DNA from: Sediminibacterium sp.
Lineage (GTDB): Bacteria > Bacteroidota > Bacteroidia > Chitinophagales > Chitinophagaceae
NCBI RefSeq assembly: GCF_019264485.1
Contig: NZ_JAHVAA010000006.1
Coordinates: 1 to 64,000, forward strand
Direction: 5' to 3'
Length of the DNA stretch: 64,000 bases
The notes under the pieces were generated by a model that worked only from the letters and a program-made list of their open reading frames with translations, had not been told where the DNA came from and did no database searches. A program made the position numbers and the translations under genes. Of the stretch, positions 31,172-55,930 are shown in pieces; the stretch's first letter is position 1, and the number at the start of each line of letters is the position of its first letter.

Positions 31172-34100
31172 ATGAGCTGCTTGTGGAAGACCATATCCAA
31201 TATTAGCATGCCTGTGCGTTATGTGCGGGGGGGAAATTCATTTTATAAACGACTTTCTCTTTTTTTATTGCTGCTGGTTTTTATTCCGGTGGTTTCGTTT
31301 GCTCAGTTTACAACCGGAGGCACCATCACAGGAACAAAATGTCAAGTTTGGGACGCAGCACATGTATTTACGGAGACTGTTCCAGTTTCTGTTGAAAATG
31401 GATTTGAGGAATATCAATGGCAAAGATCTCAAGACCCTACATTTTCAAGTGGCATAGTAAATCTCTCGACATCAAAGCCTTTATTAGATAATTCTGATAT
31501 CACTGGTACGTGGTACTATAGGCGACAAGTTACAAGAGCAGATAACCCAGGTGTTACTTTATATAGTAATACTATAATGGTTGTAATGATGCCCAGTGTA
31601 AGTATTGCTGGCACATTAACTGTTTGTCAAAATGCAACCAACCCTACATTAACGATTACGGCGGTGGGAGGTATTGCACCTTATACCATTACTTATAACC
31701 TGAATGGTGTGGCGCAAACAGCAATTGCTACTACAACGGGTGCTGGTACTATGACGGGTACGGTAACTATTTCAGCGCCCACAAATGTGGCGGGCACATT
31801 TACTTATAGCCTCACTTCAGTTGTAGATGCAAATTCGTTATCGGAAACCTGTACTAACTCAAGTGTTAGCAGCAGTGCTACAATCACTGTAACAGCTTTG
31901 CCTACCGCAACTATTACAGCAAATACATTAACGGCTTGTGTAAACAGCACAGCTCCAGTTGTTACATTAACAGGTTTGGGAGGCACGGCCCCCTTTACAT
32001 TTACTTATCGGGAAATTACTAATGGAACACCCGGTTCTAATCAAACTATCGTATCAAATTTAGCGGGAGTTGCTAGTTTTTCTGCAACAGTGTCATCAGC
32101 CGCGACACGTAATTATGAATTAGTATCTGTGCAGGAAAGTAGTGCTACAGCTTGTATAAATGCGCAGAATTCATCAGTCACAATTGTTACAAATTCAAAT
32201 CCAGATGCAACCGGTGTTAACCCGTTTCTGCCTGCAGTCTGTTTGGGGACACCTAATTTTAGTGTTACATTTTCCGGTGTCAGTGGGGGTCCGGACCAGT
32301 ACCGGATTATATGGGATGGTACTGCAACAGCGGCCGGTTTTACCAACGATGGCTTCCAGACATATAATACAGGAACGAATACAATAACCGTAACTGTACC
32401 TGGAACCGCATTAGCAAACACCACTTACAATGGAACACTTAGACTCCAAAATTCATCTACAGGGTGTTTTTTGGAAAATTCGAGTTCCGTAACAATAAAC
32501 CCATTGCCAACAGCAACGATTACGAGATCGGCCGCAGCTGTATGTGTTAATGGAACAATTCCCACTGTTACGATAACCGCAGCAGGAGCCACAGCACCTT
32601 ATTCTGTTACGTACCGATTATTAACGAATGGAGTAGCGGGATCGAATCAGGTGATTGCAACAAATGGAGCAGGCGTAGCTACCATCAATGTACCGGTAAC
32701 TACAGCAGCCGAACTGACATATGAGTTGGTATCGGTGCAGGAAAGTAGTGCAACTGCATGTGTAAATGCGCAGACATCATCAACGACAGTAACAGTCAAT
32801 CCATTACCGACAGCAACGATTGGAAGTTCAGCTGCAGCAGTATGTGTAAATGGTACAGCCCCCACAGTAACGTTAACGGGCATAGGAGGCACAGCACCAT
32901 ACACATTTATTTACACATTGAATAGTGGATCGAATCAAACGATTACTTCGACGGGCAATACAGCAATCATAACTGTACCTGTAACAACAGCAGGAACCTT
33001 TACATATCAGTTGGTATCGGTACAGGAGAGTAGTGCAACCGCATGTGTAAATGCACAAACATCATCAACGACAGTAACAGTTAATCAATTGCCAACCGCA
33101 ACTACCACAGCAACCGGTCCTACTACATTCTGCGCTGGCAGTTCTGTAACACTAAATGCGAATACGGGAACAGGATTAAGTTATCTGTGGAGTAATGGAT
33201 CAATAAATCCGTCTGTTACAAATATTGTTTCATCGGGAACCTATACAGTAACTGTAACGAATACAAATAACTGTTCAGTTACATCGGCTCCAACTATTGT
33301 TACAGTGAATGCGTTACCTACGGCAGCGATCACAGCAAGTGGACCCACTACATTCTGCGCTGGCAGTTCTGTAACACTGAATGCGAATACTGGAACAGGA
33401 TTAAGTTATCTGTGGAGCAATGGATCAACAAATCTGTCTATTACCAATATTGCTTCATCGGGAACCTATACAGTAACTGTAACGAATACAAATAACTGTT
33501 CAGTTACATCGGCTCCAACTATTGTTACAGTGAATGCGTTACCTACGTCAGCGATCACAGCAAGTGGACTCACTACATTCTGCGCTGGCAGTTCTGTAAC
33601 ACTAAATGCGAATACGGGAACAGGATTAAGTTATTTATGGAGTAATGGATCAACAAGTCCGTCTGTTACTAATATTGCTTCATCGGGAACCTATACAGTA
33701 ACTGTAACGAATACAAATAATTGTTCAGTTACATCGACTCCAACGATTATAACAGTAAACGCCTTGCCCACCGCCACAATCACCCCAAGCGGACCAACAA
33801 CATTCTGCGTAGGTGGCAGCGTAAATCTTACATCGAGTACAGGTACCAGCTATTTATGGAGCAATGCATCAACCAATGCTTCCATTACCAATATCACCAC
33901 ATCAGGTACTTACTCAGTAACGGTAAGAGATGCCAATGGATGCCAAAATACATCAGCCCCTGTAACCATTACGGTAAATGCAAATCCAACCCTCAACATT
34001 ACCAATCCCGCCGCCATCTGTTCGCCCGGTACGGTCGATCTTACGGCAGCAGCCATCACCACAGGCAGTACAGGCGGATTAAATTATACCTACTGGTCCA

Positions 34101-35722
34101 ATGCCGCTGCTACCACGGCCCTCACCACGCCATTTGCCATCGGTACAGCAGGCACCTATTATATACGGGGTACCAATACAATTACCAATTGTGCTGTTAT
34201 ACAACCGGTAGTAGTGAGCATCAATCCACCTGCTGTACTGCAGATCAATACACCGGCTGCTGTATGTGCCCCACAAACAGTAGACCTTACTGCTGCAGCC
34301 ATTACCAGCGGCAGTGCCGCCGGACTCAGCTATACTTATTTTACCAATGCCGCAGCTACTACCCAACTCAATAATGCCAATGCAGTAAACACATCGGGTG
34401 TTTATTATATTAAGGGTACACCGGTATCTGGCTGCAGTGCGGTGTTGCCGGTTACGGTAACCATCAATCCTTTGCCAACACTGGTGGTAAATAATCCGGC
34501 TGCGGTATGTTCACCACAGGTTATTAATTTAACCAGTGCCAATATAACAGCAGGCAGCAGTGCGGGTTTGAGTTTTGCCTATTTCTCCAATGCATCATTA
34601 ACCACACCTGTTGCCAATGCGCAATCGGTAAACAGTTCCGGTACTTTTTATATCAGGGCCACCGATGCCACCACAGGCTGTGTAAGGGCGTTACCGGTAA
34701 CCGTACAAATAAATGCGGCACCACAGGGCGTATTGGCCACACCGGCAGGTAATATTATCTGCGAAAACAGTGCGCTTACACTCAACGCATCGGGTGGTAA
34801 CAGTTACCAGTGGTTATTAAATCAGCAGCCCATAAACGGAGCCACTGCGGCTACTTATAATGCAACCGTGGCGGGTAATTATGCTGTTCGTTTTATTTCG
34901 GCCCAGGGTTGCGAAACCGTATCGGCCAATACCATCAGTCTTGAATTATTAAGCACCCCAACGGTACAGTTTACACTTAGCAATGCCTGTGCGGGGGTAT
35001 CTACTAATTTCAACAATACATCAGTAACCAGTGCCAGCGGTGGCATCAACTGGTTATGGGATTTTGGTGATGGCAGCAGCTCTAACCAGTTTTCTCCCTC
35101 ACATATTTATAGCAGTGCAGGTACTTACTCGGTTCGTTTAACCGCTACCAGTCCGGTATGCAGCAGCTTTAATGAAACATCGGAAGTAACCTATCGTGTG
35201 CAATCGGCATTACCGGCAGTTCGTTATAAAGAGGTGGATGTATTAAAAGATATTCCTGCCACCGTAACGGCCCGTGCCATTGGTACCAGTTTTCTATGGC
35301 AGCCGGCAGCGGGGGTAAGTAATATCCAGATTGCTTCGCCCAGTATTCGGGTGAGTACCACCACAGAATATACCGTGGCCATTACCAATGATATTGGTTG
35401 CACCACTACCGATACGGTATTGGTGAAAGTAATTCCGGGTGTAGACATTTATGTGCCACAAGGTTTTACACCCAATAACGACGGACAAAACGATCGGCTT
35501 TATCCGATACTGGTGGGTATGCGTCAACTGAATTATTTCCGTGTATTCAACCGCTGGGGTCATATGATTTTTACTACCAAAGAAAGCAGCGTACAATCGG
35601 GCTGGAATGGTCAGTATCTTGGTGTGGTGCAACCCATCGGCACTTATACCTGGATAGCAGAAGCCATAGACCTGCAGGGAAATGTGGTGAGGAAAACGGG
35701 AACGGTGTTGTTGTTGCAGTAG
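31172..35722 (+). CDS. Large T9SS-exported adhesin with Ig-like repeats and type B sorting domain
   Basis: 1516 residues. A signal peptide (SLFLLLLVFIPVVSFAQ; start may be codon 13, MPVRYVRG) is followed by a long series of Ig-like/SprB-type repeats rich in Thr/Ser, many ending VTVNPLPTATI. Residues about 650-880 hold four 75-residue repeats (period 225 bp, first three almost identical; TTFCAGSSVTLNANTGTGLS). A PKD domain lies near 1285-1345 (WLWDFGDGSSS). The C-terminus (about 1420-1516; YVPQGFTPNNDGQNDRLYPI, FNRWGHMIF) is the gliding-motility/type B T9SS sorting domain. Expected to be exported by the T9SS and held at the cell surface, probably for adhesion. Followed by its typical partner PorP/SprF. 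Confidence 0.92.
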   Translation: MSCLWKTISNISMPVRYVRGGNSFYKRLSLFLLLLVFIPVVSFAQFTTGGTITGTKCQVWDAAHVFTETVPVSVENGFEEYQWQRSQDPTFSSGIVNLSTSKPLLDNSDITGTWYYRRQVTRADNPGVTLYSNTIMVVMMPSVSIAGTLTVCQNATNPTLTITAVGGIAPYTITYNLNGVAQTAIATTTGAGTMTGTVTISAPTNVAGTFTYSLTSVVDANSLSETCTNSSVSSSATITVTALPTATITANTLTACVNSTAPVVTLTGLGGTAPFTFTYREITNGTPGSNQTIVSNLAGVASFSATVSSAATRNYELVSVQESSATACINAQNSSVTIVTNSNPDATGVNPFLPAVCLGTPNFSVTFSGVSGGPDQYRIIWDGTATAAGFTNDGFQTYNTGTNTITVTVPGTALANTTYNGTLRLQNSSTGCFLENSSSVTINPLPTATITRSAAAVCVNGTIPTVTITAAGATAPYSVTYRLLTNGVAGSNQVIATNGAGVATINVPVTTAAELTYELVSVQESSATACVNAQTSSTTVTVNPLPTATIGSSAAAVCVNGTAPTVTLTGIGGTAPYTFIYTLNSGSNQTITSTGNTAIITVPVTTAGTFTYQLVSVQESSATACVNAQTSSTTVTVNQLPTATTTATGPTTFCAGSSVTLNANTGTGLSYLWSNGSINPSVTNIVSSGTYTVTVTNTNNCSVTSAPTIVTVNALPTAAITASGPTTFCAGSSVTLNANTGTGLSYLWSNGSTNLSITNIASSGTYTVTVTNTNNCSVTSAPTIVTVNALPTSAITASGLTTFCAGSSVTLNANTGTGLSYLWSNGSTSPSVTNIASSGTYTVTVTNTNNCSVTSTPTIITVNALPTATITPSGPTTFCVGGSVNLTSSTGTSYLWSNASTNASITNITTSGTYSVTVRDANGCQNTSAPVTITVNANPTLNITNPAAICSPGTVDLTAAAITTGSTGGLNYTYWSNAAATTALTTPFAIGTAGTYYIRGTNTITNCAVIQPVVVSINPPAVLQINTPAAVCAPQTVDLTAAAITSGSAAGLSYTYFTNAAATTQLNNANAVNTSGVYYIKGTPVSGCSAVLPVTVTINPLPTLVVNNPAAVCSPQVINLTSANITAGSSAGLSFAYFSNASLTTPVANAQSVNSSGTFYIRATDATTGCVRALPVTVQINAAPQGVLATPAGNIICENSALTLNASGGNSYQWLLNQQPINGATAATYNATVAGNYAVRFISAQGCETVSANTISLELLSTPTVQFTLSNACAGVSTNFNNTSVTSASGGINWLWDFGDGSSSNQFSPSHIYSSAGTYSVRLTATSPVCSSFNETSEVTYRVQSALPAVRYKEVDVLKDIPATVTARAIGTSFLWQPAAGVSNIQIASPSIRVSTTTEYTVAITNDIGCTTTDTVLVKVIPGVDIYVPQGFTPNNDGQNDRLYPILVGMRQLNYFRVFNRWGHMIFTTKESSVQSGWNGQYLGVVQPIGTYTWIAEAIDLQGNVVRKTGTVLLLQ
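33125..34024 (+). repeat. Four 225-bp tandem repeats inside the adhesin gene
   Basis: The word ACATTCTGCG begins units at 33125, 33350, 33575 and 33800, an exact 225-bp (75-codon) period. The first three units are nearly identical at DNA level and the fourth has diverged. In-frame length means unequal crossing-over would lengthen or shorten the adhesin without breaking it; unit number could vary between strains (inference). Confidence 0.88.
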
Positions 35723-35802: not shown

Positions 35803-36804
35803 ATGAAGCTAAAATCAATCATATTATTCACACTCATCTGCTGCAGTGGTGTACTGCATGCACAGGATCCTTATTTTTCTCAGTATTATAGTTCTCCGCT
35901 TACATTCAATCCTGCACTCACGGGTTATTTTAATGGGGCGCACAGATTAGCCATTAATTATCGCAACCAGTGGGCCAATATCAGTTCGCCATACCAGACA
36001 GGGGCTATTTCTTTTGATACCCGTATCATGAAAAATAAAATAGGCACCAATAATAAATGGGGGCTGGGTATACAGGCTATGTACGACCAGGCAGGAGCAG
36101 GCGTTTACAAGAACAGTTATATAGCGGTATCAACCGGATTCAATAAAGGACTGGATGCTGATGGTAACCAATCGATCGGTATTGGTATACAGGCGGCATA
36201 TGCACGCCATGTGGTTGACTTCAGTAAAATAAGTTTTGCCAACCAGTTTACCAGCAGTGGTTTCGATTTGTCGGTGCCCAGTGGCGAAACCATCAACAAC
36301 CGATCTGTGGGTTATACCGATCTGAATATCGGGCTATTGTACAATTATGGTGATGAAGCGGGTAATAATTTTAATGTAGGTGCATCGGTGTATCATCTGC
36401 TCCGGCCATCACTGAGTTTTTTCAGTGCACAGAACAGCAGGATTGCGAGGCGTTATGCGGTTCATGCAAGTGGACTTTTACAGGTGAATGATCGAGATCA
36501 GTTTTTTTTCAGCAGTAATTTTATGCAGCAGGCCAGTAATAACCAGACAGTTGTAGGCATGGCTTATGGCTGGGGTATTGGCGATATGGATGCACATGTG
36601 TATACAGGTGCCTGGTTAAGGGTGAAAGATGCAGTGTATCCGTATATCGGACTGAGAACAAGTAATTACCAGATAGGCATCAGTTACGATATCACCCATT
36701 CCGATCTCAAAAAAGCCAATGGCTTTACCGGTAGCAGTGAATTGTCTTTTATTTATTTCTTCAACCAGAAAGACAGGCGGAATAGTATTCCTTGTTTTTT
36801 TTAG
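35803..36804 (+). CDS. PorP/SprF-family outer-membrane protein of the type IX secretion system
   Basis: 333 residues: signal peptide (SIILFTLICCSGVLHAQ), then the family opening DPYFSQYYSSPLTFNPALTG and a beta barrel. Members associate with type B-sorted T9SS cargo and help anchor it to the surface (SprF with SprB in Flavobacterium). The gene follows the large adhesin by 80 bp with a heptad repeat between, a standard cargo-anchor pairing. Ends with SFIYFFNQKDRRNSIPCFF. Confidence 0.93.
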   Translation: MKLKSIILFTLICCSGVLHAQDPYFSQYYSSPLTFNPALTGYFNGAHRLAINYRNQWANISSPYQTGAISFDTRIMKNKIGTNNKWGLGIQAMYDQAGAGVYKNSYIAVSTGFNKGLDADGNQSIGIGIQAAYARHVVDFSKISFANQFTSSGFDLSVPSGETINNRSVGYTDLNIGLLYNYGDEAGNNFNVGASVYHLLRPSLSFFSAQNSRIARRYAVHASGLLQVNDRDQFFFSSNFMQQASNNQTVVGMAYGWGIGDMDAHVYTGAWLRVKDAVYPYIGLRTSNYQIGISYDITHSDLKKANGFTGSSELSFIYFFNQKDRRNSIPCFF

Positions 36805-36810
36805 GGAATA

Positions 36811-36897
36811 GGGAATCGTCAATGGTGAATGGTCAATCGGGAGTAAGGAGACATAAACATTCACGATTTACCATTGACCATTCACTACTCCCTCCGC
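36811..36897. repeat. Heptad inverted repeat, CAATGGT/ACCATTG family
   Basis: Left (36811-36849) GGGAATCGTCAATGGTGAAT and on; right (36858-36896) TTCACGATTTACCATTGACC and on to CACTACTCCCTCC. Words of 7 nt (GTCAATG GTGAATG GTCAATC; TTACCAT TGACCAT TCACTAC). The arms are near complements over about 35 nt. The frame from 36874 would read into this repeat, which argues for the later start. Confidence 0.8.
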
Positions 36898-38235: not shown

Positions 38236-38868
38236 ATGACCAAATTATTGATTTACGAAGACAACCCCCAGTTACGTGAAGGACTTACCATGCTCATTAA
38301 CGGGTCTGACGGATTTGAAGTATTATCTGCCTTTAAGAACTGTAATAATGTAGAAGATGAAGTGCAGGCTTTTAAACCCGATGTGATACTGATGGATATT
38401 GATATGCCCGGCACCAATGGTATTGAGGGTCTTAAAAAAATACGTGAAATAGATACCGATGTAAAAATTCTGATGCTCACTGTATTCGACGACAATAAAA
38501 ATGTATTCGATGCCATCAGCAACGGCGCCAATGGTTATGTATTGAAAAAAACACCCCCGGCCCGACTGCTCGAATACATTCAGGAAGCGCAAACAGGCGG
38601 CGCTCCCATGACTTCCTCCATCGCCACACAGGTATTAAAAATGTTTTCTTCGCTCAATAATGAAAAGGGTGAAGACTATGACCTCTCCGAAAGAGAAAAA
38701 CAGGTATTGCAATTACTCGTGAACGGGTATAGCTATAAAATGATTGCTTCAGAAATGTTTATTGCCATTGATACCGTTCGTTCCCATATCAAAAAAATCT
38801 ACGAGAAACTCCACGTAAACAGTAAGAGCGAAGCAGTGGCCAAGGCTTTCAGGAATAAGATTGTTTAG
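38236..38868 (+). CDS. Response regulator, NarL/FixJ type
   Basis: 210 residues from ATG 38236 (MTKLLIYEDNPQLREGLTML). Receiver: Glu8-Asp9, Asp54 (DVILMDIDMPGTNG), Thr82 (MLTVFDD), Lys near 104 (LKKTPP). LuxR-type DNA-binding end: LSEREKQVLQLLVNGYSYKM, then IDTVRSHIKKIYEKLHVNSK. The earlier ATG at 38128 lies in the heptad array. No kinase gene adjoins it. Followed directly by a composite repeat. Confidence 0.92.
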   Translation: MTKLLIYEDNPQLREGLTMLINGSDGFEVLSAFKNCNNVEDEVQAFKPDVILMDIDMPGTNGIEGLKKIREIDTDVKILMLTVFDDNKNVFDAISNGANGYVLKKTPPARLLEYIQEAQTGGAPMTSSIATQVLKMFSSLNNEKGEDYDLSEREKQVLQLLVNGYSYKMIASEMFIAIDTVRSHIKKIYEKLHVNSKSEAVAKAFRNKIV

Positions 38869-38877
38869 GGAGAGGAA

Positions 38878-39110
38878 AAGACCGAAAGACCGAAAGTCCG
38901 AAAGTCCGGAAGAAACTTGAATGTATAGAAAACCTCCGTGTAACTCCGTGGTTAACCACAGAGTTGCACGGAGGTTTCTTTAGTAAATCAATCATCTTTC
39001 CGACTTTCGGACTTCCGGACTTCCGGACTTCCGGTCTTCCGGTCTCTCAGACTCCCGGACTTCACCACTCACCACTCACCATTCACCTCCCACCCCTCCC
39101 ACCTTCCCTT
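38878..39110. repeat. Composite repeat: GACCGAAA arms around a 48-bp palindrome (copy 1)
   Basis: Left arm of 8-nt words (GACCGAAA GACCGAAA GTCCGAAA GTCCGGAAG, 38880-38911); an inner 48-bp near-perfect palindrome (AAACCTCCGTGTAACTCCG..., 38930-38977); the linker TTTAGTAAATCAATCATCTT (38980-38999); right arm GACTTTCG GACTTCCG GACTTCCG GACTTCCG GTCTTCCG (39002-39041 and on); then 7-nt ACCACTC words to about 39110. The linker and both arms recur at 61856-62026 in opposite orientation. It fills the gap before the cytochrome gene. Confidence 0.88.
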
Positions 39111-43499: not shown

Positions 43500-44141
43500 A
43501 TGATGAGCGTACAGGAAATAATCAACCAGTTTATCAGCGGTATACAACAAACCGGCCCACTAGAATTTATTGCAGTATTAGCAGGCATTGCGAGTGTATG
43601 GTTCAGCAGAAAAGAACATATACTGGTGTATCCTGTTGGACTCATCAACACCATTATTTATATCTATCTCAGTATAAAAGGACAATTATTCGGCGAAGCC
43701 AGTGTGAATTTTTATTATTCGGTGATGAGTGTATATGGATGGGTGCTCTGGACAAAAAAAGACGCGCATACAAAAACACTGCTACTCCATATCACCAACA
43801 GCTCAAAAAAAGAATGGATACAACAGCTGGCTTTTTTTGGTGCTTTCTATCTCTTGCTTTTTGTATTACTTACCTGGTTACAAAAAGGGTTTGCACCCGA
43901 AGCCATTCCCTGGGCCGATGCATTTGCGAGTGCCTCAGCTTATACAGGTATGTGGCTGATGGCCAGAAAAAAAACAGAAAGCTGGATCTGGTGGATCGCA
44001 ACAAATATGGCTTCTATTCCGTTGTATTTTGTAAAAGGATATGTTTTTACCAGCGTGCAGTTTTTCATCTTATTAATCCTCGCAATTGCGGGTTTAATTG
44101 AATGGAAAAAACGGGCAGAAAAACAGCAGAATATTGAATAA
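43500..44141 (+). CDS. pnuC: Nicotinamide riboside transporter PnuC
   Basis: 213 residues with seven predicted helices. Family features: EFIAVLAGIASVWFSRKEHI (N-terminal), NTIIYIYLSIKGQLFGEASV, NFYYSVMSVYGWVLWTKKD, and WWIATNMASIPLYFVKGY. Imports nicotinamide riboside by facilitated diffusion, driven by trapping as NMN by a NadR-type kinase, which is encoded 500 bp downstream. The gene between them, a four-helix-bundle protein, looks inserted. The start MM could be either Met. Confidence 0.93.
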   Translation: MMSVQEIINQFISGIQQTGPLEFIAVLAGIASVWFSRKEHILVYPVGLINTIIYIYLSIKGQLFGEASVNFYYSVMSVYGWVLWTKKDAHTKTLLLHITNSSKKEWIQQLAFFGAFYLLLFVLLTWLQKGFAPEAIPWADAFASASAYTGMWLMARKKTESWIWWIATNMASIPLYFVKGYVFTSVQFFILLILAIAGLIEWKKRAEKQQNIE

Positions 44142-44162
44142 TGAATAATGAATGATGAAGGG
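44132..44162. repeat. GAATnnn heptads, left side of the four-helix-bundle gene
   Basis: GAATATT GAATAAT GAATAAT GAATGAT GAAGG. The right-side counterpart (44623-44646: TTATTCAATATTCATGATTC...) contains complements of these words, so the two lie as an imperfect inverted repeat around 44243-44611. It overlaps the pnuC stop region. Confidence 0.72.
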
Positions 44163-44242
44163 GATAGCATAAAATAGGGTATTTCTACGCTATCAATACC
44201 TGACAGGTCTTTGGTATTTTGCTTTTCATCAATTTATAAAAG

Positions 44243-44611
44243 ATGGAAAGGAAATTTGATCTTGAACAGCGACTGATAAAATTTAGTGTATCCGCCATCA
44301 GGCTGGCTGAGAAGTTGCCAACCTCTTTTGCAGGTAAACATTTATCTGGTCAGTTAATCAGGAGTGCAACGGCTCCGGCTTTAAATTATGGAGAAGCGCA
44401 ATCTGCCGAATCAAGAAATGATTTTATTCATAAACTTAAAATCGCGCTGAGGGAACTTAGAGAAACTAAAAATAATTTGTTGATTATTCACCAAATGGAA
44501 TGGTATAAAGACAATGAGTTGAATGCTATAGTCGCTGAAACAATTGAATTGATTTCAATTTTTTCTAAAAGTATTACGACAACTCAAAAAAATAAAACAG
44601 CCAAAACTTAA
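44243..44611 (+). CDS. Four-helix-bundle protein (S23/IVP family)
   Basis: 122 residues. The S23 ribosomal-intervening-sequence family: FDLEQRLIKFSVSAIRLAEK, LPTSFAGKHLSGQLIRSATA, PALNYGEAQSAESRNDFIHK, IALRELRETKNNL. Proteins of this family are encoded in 23S rRNA intervening sequences or stand alone in many Bacteroidota; they resemble Avd accessory proteins of diversity-generating retroelements. Here it splits pnuC from nadR and is bracketed by GAATnnn heptad arms, suggesting it arrived as a cassette. Function unknown. Confidence 0.88.
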   Translation: MERKFDLEQRLIKFSVSAIRLAEKLPTSFAGKHLSGQLIRSATAPALNYGEAQSAESRNDFIHKLKIALRELRETKNNLLIIHQMEWYKDNELNAIVAETIELISIFSKSITTTQKNKTAKT

Positions 44612-44622
44612 TCGTTCGAAAT

Positions 44623-44646
44623 TGTTTATTCAATATTCATGATTCA
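44623..44646. repeat. GAATnnn heptads, right side of the four-helix-bundle gene
   Basis: TTATTCAATATTCATGATTC spans the end of the intergenic space and the first codons of the nadR-like gene (ATG 44639). It complements the left array at 44132-44162 imperfectly. Confidence 0.6.
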
Positions 44647-45232
44647 TAAGATCGTAATACTAGGACCAGAGTCGACCGGCAAAAGCACACTGTGTGAATT
44701 GCTGGCGCAGCATTACCATACACAGTGGTGCCCCGAATTTGCGCGTGAATATTTAATGACAAATGGTATGGACTATACTTACGACGACCTGCTCACCATT
44801 GCAAAAGGGCAACTGGCACTTGAGGCGGAATATGAAGCCATGGTCCATGGTCCATGGTCCATGGTCGAAAAACGGTGGGTGAATACAAAAACACTTCGCT
44901 CACAAAAACATGCACCTCTTTTATTTATTGATACCGATATGTATGTGATGAAAGTATGGTGCGAATATGTGTTTCAGAAATGTCATCACTTTATACTGGA
45001 TGAAATTGTACACCGTAAATACGATCTCTATTTACTTTGTAAACCTGATCTTCCGTGGACAGATGATGTATTAAGAGAGTATCCGGATGAAAAACCAAGA
45101 CAGGAGCTCTATCAAATTTATCGCGATATCATGATCAACCAGCAAATACCCTGGGTAGAAATTTCAGGCGATTATGAAGAGCGTTTACAACAAGCTATTA
45201 CAGCAGTTGACAAGCTGATTAGTACTGTATAA
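44639..45232 (+). CDS. nadR: NadR-type nicotinamide riboside kinase
   Basis: 197 residues, P-loop kinase: Walker A GPESTGKSTL (residues 8-17), PEFAREYL (lid/substrate), LLFIDTDMYVMKVWCEY (Walker B-like), and DDVLREYPDEKPRQELY. It phosphorylates nicotinamide riboside brought in by PnuC. Residues about 67-90 (MVHGPWSMVEKRWVNTKTLR) interrupt the family between the GQLALEAEYE helix and LLFIDTDMY; the DNA there is four perfect copies of CATGGTC (44839-44866). The extra segment therefore derives from a heptad repeat. Whether the enzyme still works is unknown. Confidence 0.86.
   Translation: MIHKIVILGPESTGKSTLCELLAQHYHTQWCPEFAREYLMTNGMDYTYDDLLTIAKGQLALEAEYEAMVHGPWSMVEKRWVNTKTLRSQKHAPLLFIDTDMYVMKVWCEYVFQKCHHFILDEIVHRKYDLYLLCKPDLPWTDDVLREYPDEKPRQELYQIYRDIMINQQIPWVEISGDYEERLQQAITAVDKLISTV
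44839..44866. repeat. Four perfect CATGGTC heptads inside the nadR-like gene
   Basis: CATGGTC repeated four times without change (28 bp), within an otherwise coding stretch. The same word occurs in intergenic arrays near 35731, 54427, 55873 and 56352. The reading frame continues through, so the insertion was in-frame or frame-restored. Confidence 0.92.
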
Positions 45233-55412: not shown

Positions 55413-55871
55413 ATGAAAAAATTACAATTCAAGGTAAGCATTAATGCACCTGTAAATAAAGTGTATGATTGTATGCTTGGCATGAGCAATAAGTCAACCT
55501 ATGAACAATGGACTGCTCTATTTAATCCCACATCTACTTATGAGGGTAGCTGGAATAAGGGCAACAAAATGCTTTTTGTTGGAACAGATGAGAAAGGAGA
55601 GAAGGGGGGTATGGTTGCTGAAATAGCAGAAAATATATCTGATAAATTTGTTTCCATTCGTCATTATGGTCTTTTAGCAGGTGGTAAAGAAATAACAGAA
55701 GGGCCGGAAGTTGAAAAATGGGCAGGTGCATTGGAAAATTATTCCTTTGATGAAAACAATGGCATTACTGTAGTTACTGTTGAACTGGATACAACAGAAG
55801 ATTTTGTAGACTATATGAACGAACACTATCCCAAGGCGTTGAATAAGTTAAAAGAAGTATGTGAGGGGTAG
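55413..55871 (+). CDS. SRPBCC/AHSA1-family protein
   Basis: 152 residues, START-like fold: MKKLQFKVSINAPVNKVYDC (opening), EQWTALFNPTSTYEGSWNKG, ENISDKFVSIRHYGLLAGG, and a C-terminal helix (HYPKALNKLKEVCEG). Binds hydrophobic ligands or acts as a chaperone-like cofactor; specifics unknown. Starts 25 bp after the previous gene, possibly the same unit. A heptad repeat follows. Confidence 0.86.
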   Translation: MKKLQFKVSINAPVNKVYDCMLGMSNKSTYEQWTALFNPTSTYEGSWNKGNKMLFVGTDEKGEKGGMVAEIAENISDKFVSIRHYGLLAGGKEITEGPEVEKWAGALENYSFDENNGITVVTVELDTTEDFVDYMNEHYPKALNKLKEVCEG

Positions 55872-55872
55872 T

Positions 55873-55930
55873 TTGTGGTCCATGGTCCATAGACCATAGC
55901 AGGAATGTTTTACTATGGACCATCAACCAC
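55873..55930. repeat. Heptad inverted repeat, GTCCATG family, left of the ParD region
   Basis: Left arm GTGGTCCATGGTCCATAGAC and on; right arm ACTATGGACCATCAACCAC (55912-55930). It directly abuts the nagA-like 3' fragment and has a partner array at 56352-56389 beyond the ParD gene. Confidence 0.8.

Follow-up and report, generated by a model that had tools for sequence, protein, structure and literature searches.

The four head-to-tail CATGGTC words inside the NadR-type kinase gene of a Sediminibacterium sp. contig (NZ_JAHVAA010000006.1, positions 1 to 64,000; this whole stretch of 64,000 nucleotides (nt) is hereafter the window) are probably the old, in-frame, one-armed and domesticated relic of a hairpin element with heptad arms, of the S23 type that resembles the intervening sequences (IVSs) of 23S rRNA. 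The segment that holds the words is common to a clade of kinases, and 7/8-nt hairpins of other units occupy the same loop in other lineages. Arrays of such units flank S23 genes, and the nuoF-nuoG junction is found in three states. The nadR heptads look like the inverted, paired arrays on either side of S23 genes, a point beyond the view of the earlier reading of this DNA from its letters (the sequence-only reading). We infer that these elements are mobile with a role for the S23 protein, and that the same process brought in the nadR hairpin. Loci carry our own L and G numbers, and the features at issue are the following.

44639-45232, plus strand: NadR-type ribosylnicotinamide kinase (AAA_28), 197 amino acids, from the open reading frame (ORF) and profile matches.
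44839-44866, plus strand: CATGGTC four times, in frame, from letters, shuffles, Tandem Repeats Finder (TRF) and folding.
44833-44910, plus strand: length-variable segment ahead of Walker B, bounds approximate, with a 7/8-nt inverted hairpin in some relatives; from alignment, loop scan and AlphaFold.
44243-44611, plus strand: S23 (23S rRNA-intervening-sequence-type) four-helix-bundle gene (PF05635, TIGR02436), 122 amino acids, from profile matches and the S23 model.
44125-44164, plus strand: left heptad array (GAATAAT) of the S23 element, overlapping the pnuC stop codon; from TRF, array scan and folding.
44620-44649, plus strand: right complementary heptad array (ATTCAAT ATTCATG ATTCAT), overlapping the nadR start codon; from letters, array scan and folding.
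43500-44141, plus strand: pnuC, upstream of the kinase and on its strand, encoding a nicotinamide riboside transporter; the left S23 array holds its last codons; from the ORF and profile matches.

Read directly from the letters, the four words are exact, and TRF calls the array at 44838-44866 with period 7, 4.1 copies and 100% match; it is a heptameric simple sequence repeat, with head-to-tail 7-nt copies beyond chance. The 14-mer CATGGTCCATGGTC, which covers two words, occurs three times in the window, all within the nadR array (0 expected, 100 shuffles). Across the 3.64-Mb genome it has 13 hits, some overlapping, which make up nine sites (nadR and eight others), and the reversed-pattern control gave 0. 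Letters, TRF and the ORF therefore agree with the sequence-only reading that the words lie in frame in the kinase gene, and its claim that they occur outside this gene too holds for these eight further sites. The array encodes AMVHGPWSMVE, ahead of LLFIDTDMY. Since the four words make up 28 nt, which is not divisible by 3, the frame is kept because the whole loop is a multiple of 3 and not because heptads are frame-neutral. CATGGTC is nearly palindromic (CCATGG), and the array is therefore able to fold on itself; it is a single direct array, and the window loop has a hairpin score of 6.

The host gene matches PF13521 (AAA_28) with 109 bits (cut-off 27) and has the P-loop residues of a NadR kinase domain, which are invariant (G9 P10 E11 T13 G14 K15). 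It showed no match to an NMN (nicotinamide mononucleotide) adenylyltransferase domain and reached 97.9 bits against the cut-off of 341.15 for TIGR01526; it thus represents the kinase part only and not a bifunctional NadR. AlphaFold, run on a 34-row alignment, predicts the kinase with a mean pLDDT (predicted local distance difference test) of 91.6 and the segment as an ordered beta-hairpin (strands 73-76 and 79-82, block pLDDT 89-90). This predicted fold, drawn from a shallow alignment, speaks for domestication of the segment in the window clade.

Kinases were gathered from the genomes of relatives (45 of 60 matched) and from GTDB contigs (best 80 of 375), and 107 of them were parsed. The variable stretch lies between the conserved KGQLALE helix and LLFIDTD and differs in both length and residues. 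Trimmed loops range from below 60 to 123 nt, with 96 nt in the window, which bears out the earlier view that the segment is extra compared with many relatives. Loops of at least 60 nt (n = 82; L019, L021 and L100 were left out of the scan) were scored as periodic at period 7 or 8 with at least 15/21 matches, and same-length windows elsewhere in nadR (n = 164) served as controls. By this measure 25/82 loops were periodic and 13/82 were periodic with an inverted hairpin, compared with 0/164 controls; by hairpin score alone, 3/164 control windows passed, and other periods gave 0-1 loops. The unit, judged by eye, differs by lineage (AATGGTG, CGGGAAT, AGTCAGG, AAAATAG, and the octad TCCGGAAG), and one lineage has an octad in place of a heptad (L113). 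Inverted, unit-matched second arms are found in more distant relatives (L048, L065, L072, L083 and others) and in none of the window's own clade.

This clade (100/95) unites the window with UBA7692 (L044), Sediminibacterium goheungense (L045), L046 and L047, all with segments of equal length. Because these four nearest relatives hold the segment at constant length, the words are inherited and, in the sequences compared, not freshly expanding, and copy-number expansion in nadR was rejected for the near clade. A tree built from the 107 kinases with the loop excluded requires 17 changes of the periodic state, of which well-supported branches force at least eight, with bootstrap not fully settled; a single origin of all periodic loops is thus not favoured. 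The sequence-only reading had proposed that the words spread into, or expand in, coding DNA. Repeat DNA has indeed been gained or lost in the loop several times, but recent spread or copy-number expansion here finds no support, as L044-L047 differ by substitutions only. The same reading had held that a segment shared by relatives, with conserved residues over non-repetitive DNA, would refute it. Half of this holds: relatives do share the segment with similar residues, a loose WS.V....WVN pattern in loops of 117-120 nt recurring in L044-L058, but heptads persist in the DNA of the near clade and fade in that of remoter kinases.

Immediately upstream of the kinase, 44125-44649 (L129) holds a PF05635 ORF between complementary arrays (flank score 18) and so has the architecture of an S23/IVS-like hairpin element. 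It lies between pnuC and nadR, outside 23S rRNA, and is therefore not a 23S intervening sequence proper, although it folds as an RNA stem around the S23 ORF (z -2.6), as 23S IVSs do. The genome holds eight PF05635 genes, all with 7/8-nt arrays on both sides (weakest in L131). Flank complementarity reached at least 14 in 7/8 of them (L131 scored 13) and again in 7/8 when gene ends were set by hidden Markov model (HMM); here L127 scored 9 because only a piece of this broken gene was matched. The units of the eight elements resemble, by eye, gene-less hairpin families. A second ORF of at least 90 amino acids was absent between the arrays of all eight copies and the units differ among them, and a conventional transposon with terminal inverted repeats and its own transposase was therefore rejected. 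The S23 protein, modelled from a single sequence (pLDDT 71.6), matches by fold 2rld, 2gsc, Avd (4dwl) and a diversity-generating retroelement complex (8ub7), all with E > 0.001; the S23 family has had solved structures (2gsc, 2rld) since 2006-2007.

The association extends to best-scoring S23 loci in wider samples. Flank complementarity of at least 14 was found at 45/56 S23 loci versus 1/112 controls, and of at least 18 at 15/16 plasmid loci versus 2/32 controls. With HMM-set gene ends 99/121 S23 loci passed the threshold of 14 (85/105 from Bacteroidota and 14/16 from plasmids). Ten short loci out of 66 were left out of the 56-locus test and included in the 121-locus test, from which L333, whose coordinates were not those of the hit, was left out. 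The 16 plasmid loci were picked by coverage from 47 records, one duplicate being skipped, and comprise 14 cyanobacterial loci, one from Azospirillum and one from Gemmatirosa. Three cyanobacterial plasmid loci (L230, L232, L236) have their S23 element within a CRISPR-cas operon (cas6-S23-cas4; cas10-S23-cmr3), and no reverse transcriptase is annotated beside S23 at the 14/16 plasmid loci carrying annotation. In L144-L149, from members of the genus, arrays beside the S23 gene are slight or absent (scores 9-14), and these genes may be a domesticated form.

Among the 59 loci with two periodic arms, 57/59 have a period common to both arms and 39/59 have units that agree within one base (mean of reshuffled sets 1.9, maximum 8). 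The unit of the 5' arm was purine-rich at 77/97 loci and purine-poor at 13/97. Agreement in unit rises with S23 identity, from about 2% of pairs below 45% identity to 20/57 pairs at 60-80% and 5/6 above 80%, some copies of one site included. Permutation tests of unit matching gave 10/300 for within-genome pairs (5 matching pairs) and 2/300 across phyla (23 matching pairs); among within-genome and cross-phylum pairs above 65% identity, 0/7 agree in unit. Arrays in twenty 20-kb stretches (400 kb) from 10 S23-rich genomes numbered 13 heptad and 6 octad; none were present in 16 stretches (320 kb) from 10 S23-free genomes or in two from genomes whose single S23 gene lacks arrays. In 40 kb of two genomes with one S23 gene each (L226, L227) there were 34 arrays of period 9.

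Two junctions allowed site histories to be compared. At nuoF-nuoG, 30 loci comprise 17 short gaps (7-16 bp), four S23-bearing inserts (458-481 bp), four one-armed remnants, three unrelated hairpins, one other ORF and one 45-bp gap. In the window's genome the S23 gene at this site is interrupted by a stop codon, in G070 it matches only in part, and the one-armed remnant of G035 has its last ~65 bases in common with the S23-bearing copy of G062. At pnuC-nadR, HMM searches placed S23 ahead of the kinase both in the window and at 7/109 other kinase loci, which corrected the idea that S23 genes fill all gaps of ~530 bp at this junction; the closest relatives L044-L046 lack S23 there and have other hairpins instead. 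Other hairpin families also occur at nuoF-nuoG (L275, L276, L285: CACGCAAAGGCGC...) and at pnuC-nadR (L045, L046: CTCCGTG...CACGGAG-like), suggesting that the junctions take in several hairpin kinds.

Within the window, 30 period-7/8 clusters (at least 15/21) were found. The nadR cluster alone lies wholly inside a called ORF (at least 80 amino acids); each of the remaining 29 is either intergenic or overlaps the end of an ORF, and many clusters have a complementary partner close by. Three examples are the following.

38868-39061, no strand assigned: octad hairpin with no gene between its arms (AAGTCCGG family), with a unit resembling the one in the L124 S23 element; from the array scan.
36801-36897, no strand assigned: gene-less heptad hairpin of the AATGGTC/AATGGTG family, whose words are related to those in nadR, beginning at a stop codon; from TRF and array scan.
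55868-55903, no strand assigned: intergenic array of CATGGTC-like words (TGGTCCATGGTCCATAGACC); from TRF and array scan.

A 504-kb sample of the same genome contained 161 arrays of about 10 unit families (by eye), of which only 7/161 lie well inside ORFs, though ORFs make up 78.5% of the sequence. Arrays occupy 89/402 gene gaps; the median distance of the array edge is 4 nt on the side of the stop codon and 50 nt on that of the start codon. One of the coding cases is a run of heptads (ATCAGCC, L263:15580-15613; 17/21) in frame in an Ala_racemase_N (YggS-like) gene (L263:15054-15713); its 18 relatives with a readable loop score no higher than 11 and are not repetitive there (20/30 fetched loci were looked at), and as a second coding insertion it is suggestive only. 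The ORF L254:8975-10009, with three arrays, matches DUF6787 and formyltransferase and looks like a two-gene read-through, not a clean coding insertion, and two further in-ORF arrays of this sample look like chance. Independently of these arrays, about three tandem copies of 225 nt, 90% alike, lie at 33106-33809 within a large ORF (31172-35722).

In the history that we propose, the element has fuller copies, in which two inverted arrays of a 7- or 8-nt unit enclose a small four-helix-bundle gene of the S23/IVS kind, while most copies are gene-less, as intergenic hairpins or single arrays. One hairpin would have entered the permissive kinase loop before the window clade split, with the frame kept, and the inserted segment may now code for a beta-hairpin flap; descent from an S23/IVS-like hairpin element would make the nadR array a derivative that lacks the gene. 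The S23 protein may bind hairpins of its own unit family and promote their maintenance or spread, perhaps acting on RNA or on single-stranded hairpin DNA, and one guess, with which the co-varying arms would agree, is hairpin-templated copying.

Several observations weigh against this history. The window's own loop has no second complementary arm by sequence, so a hairpin origin of its array has to be argued from the relatives, and no nadR loop holds an S23 ORF between arms. Among the loci compared, neither an insertion event nor target duplication or transposition was seen, nor was a recombinase. Different copies within one genome carry different units. The S23 locus sets are best-scoring hits, not random ones, and include some related copies of one site; 22/121 S23 loci, including L145-L149, score below 14. 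The S23-rich sample is patchy, with arrays in 7/20 stretches and 11/19 arrays from the window's genome; leaving that genome out reduces the sample to 7 heptad arrays and 1 octad array in 360 kb. Only 104 of the 107 parsed kinases are different, three pairs of rows being identical. Finally, since the segment is constant in length in the window clade and confidently folded, protein-level selection could be the whole story there.

This last point leads to the view that the segment is a conserved flap of one kinase branch, whose codons repeat by chance, the repeat in the DNA being without significance in itself. The loose residue pattern of L044-L058 and the beta-hairpin predicted at pLDDT ~90 fit it, but other lineages have unrelated residues and yet the 7/8-nt hairpin design at the same spot, and the exact double word recurs at eight other genomic sites, which makes this view improbable. 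Replication slippage that copied a 7-base word in a tolerant loop, leaving an ordinary heptameric microsatellite and requiring no element, is a somewhat stronger competitor. Heptads have been described as the over-represented long simple repeat of many bacteria, for which polymerase slippage has been proposed (PMC4692102, PMC4679880), and the nadR array is itself a single direct array. However, slippage yields direct repeats and leaves the unit-matched inverted arms (39/59) unexplained; it accounts neither for the tie to S23 nor for the lack of arrays in S23-free stretches, and the nearest relatives show no length change. We therefore regard it as unlikely. A hairpin kept at the RNA level for processing or regulation of the nadR mRNA, e.g. 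as an RNase III site, has slightly poorer prospects than even the flap. Four of six folded loops beat their shuffles (L113, z -4.4; L080, z -4.7; L094, z -3.6; the window, z -2.4), and the stem of the Coxiella 23S IVS is cut by RNase III (PMC4990558), but L063 and L065 were not significant (z -1.2 and -1.3), and because most kinase loops have no hairpin, nadR does not need one. The descent of the nadR array from an S23-type hairpin element thus remains the reading we consider probable.

A broader proposal, to which we give slightly less than an even chance, is that S23/IVP (intervening-sequence protein) genes mark IVS-like selfish elements across phyla, with arms of 7/8-nt units and a unit for each S23 subfamily. 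Their gene-less copies would be the source of many unexplained heptad repeats, including the Xanthomonas GGGAATC words, the Bacteroidota arrays and the short tandemly repeated repetitive (STRR) sequences of cyanobacteria, and would sometimes enter coding loops and yield new protein structure. Three viral contigs with GGGAATC triplets (host not known) gave no S23 hit, and the Xanthomonas part of this proposal therefore draws solely on the published heptads. Bacterial heptad repeats have been noted earlier with no agreed cause, and S23-family proteins have no known function (PMC4990558). The tie between the two gives each a testable partner, since an S23 protein would be expected to bind hairpins of its own unit family, and the tie also suggests a route from non-coding repeat DNA to an ordered part of an enzyme. 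Among the open-licence papers listed in our searches, judged by title or abstract opening, we found no report that ties S23 genes outside rRNA to heptad arrays at their flanks.

Among known systems, palindromes of the REP/RAYT type (repetitive extragenic palindromic sequences and their associated tyrosine transposases) also have many gene-less beside few gene-bearing copies, but S23 is not a transposase and the arms described here share no sequence between families. By fold alone (E > 0.001), the S23 model is like Avd of diversity-generating retroelements. BrickBuilt of Porphyromonas gingivalis, a miniature inverted-repeat transposable element, is likewise an intergenic Bacteroidota element with tandem units and inverted-repeat ends, but it has a 23-nt unit, a single family and small inverted ends, and the abstract describing it mentions no S23 gene (PMC4596501). 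The TAACTGA heptads of Beggiatoaceae are also mostly intergenic, and TAACTGA occurs in five Bacteroidetes as well; they differ in being nearly all direct (one inverted), upstream of starts and of one word (PMC4679880). Closer in arrangement are the Xanthomonas GGGAATC and Nostoc GGGGA(C/T)T heptads, which are dispersed, mostly intergenic and often in inverted pairs; the GGGAATC pairs are close (70 in Xcc, 75 in Xac) and nearer the upstream ORF (PMC4692102). That study, in the parts consulted, describes one dominant unit per genome and makes no S23 link, whereas about 10 families of 7 and 8 nt coexist in the one genome here. The 23S rRNA IVSs of Leptospira, Coxiella and others share the S23-family ORF inside a stem formed by terminal inverted repeats, and in Coxiella tandem GACAGAT heptads (two or three by strain) precede the S23 ORF of an IVS that is excised by RNase III (PMC4990558). 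Unlike these, the elements described here occupy intergenic sites and operons, often have 7/8-nt arrays as both arms with units that vary by copy, abound in gene-less copies and have left one likely coding relic.
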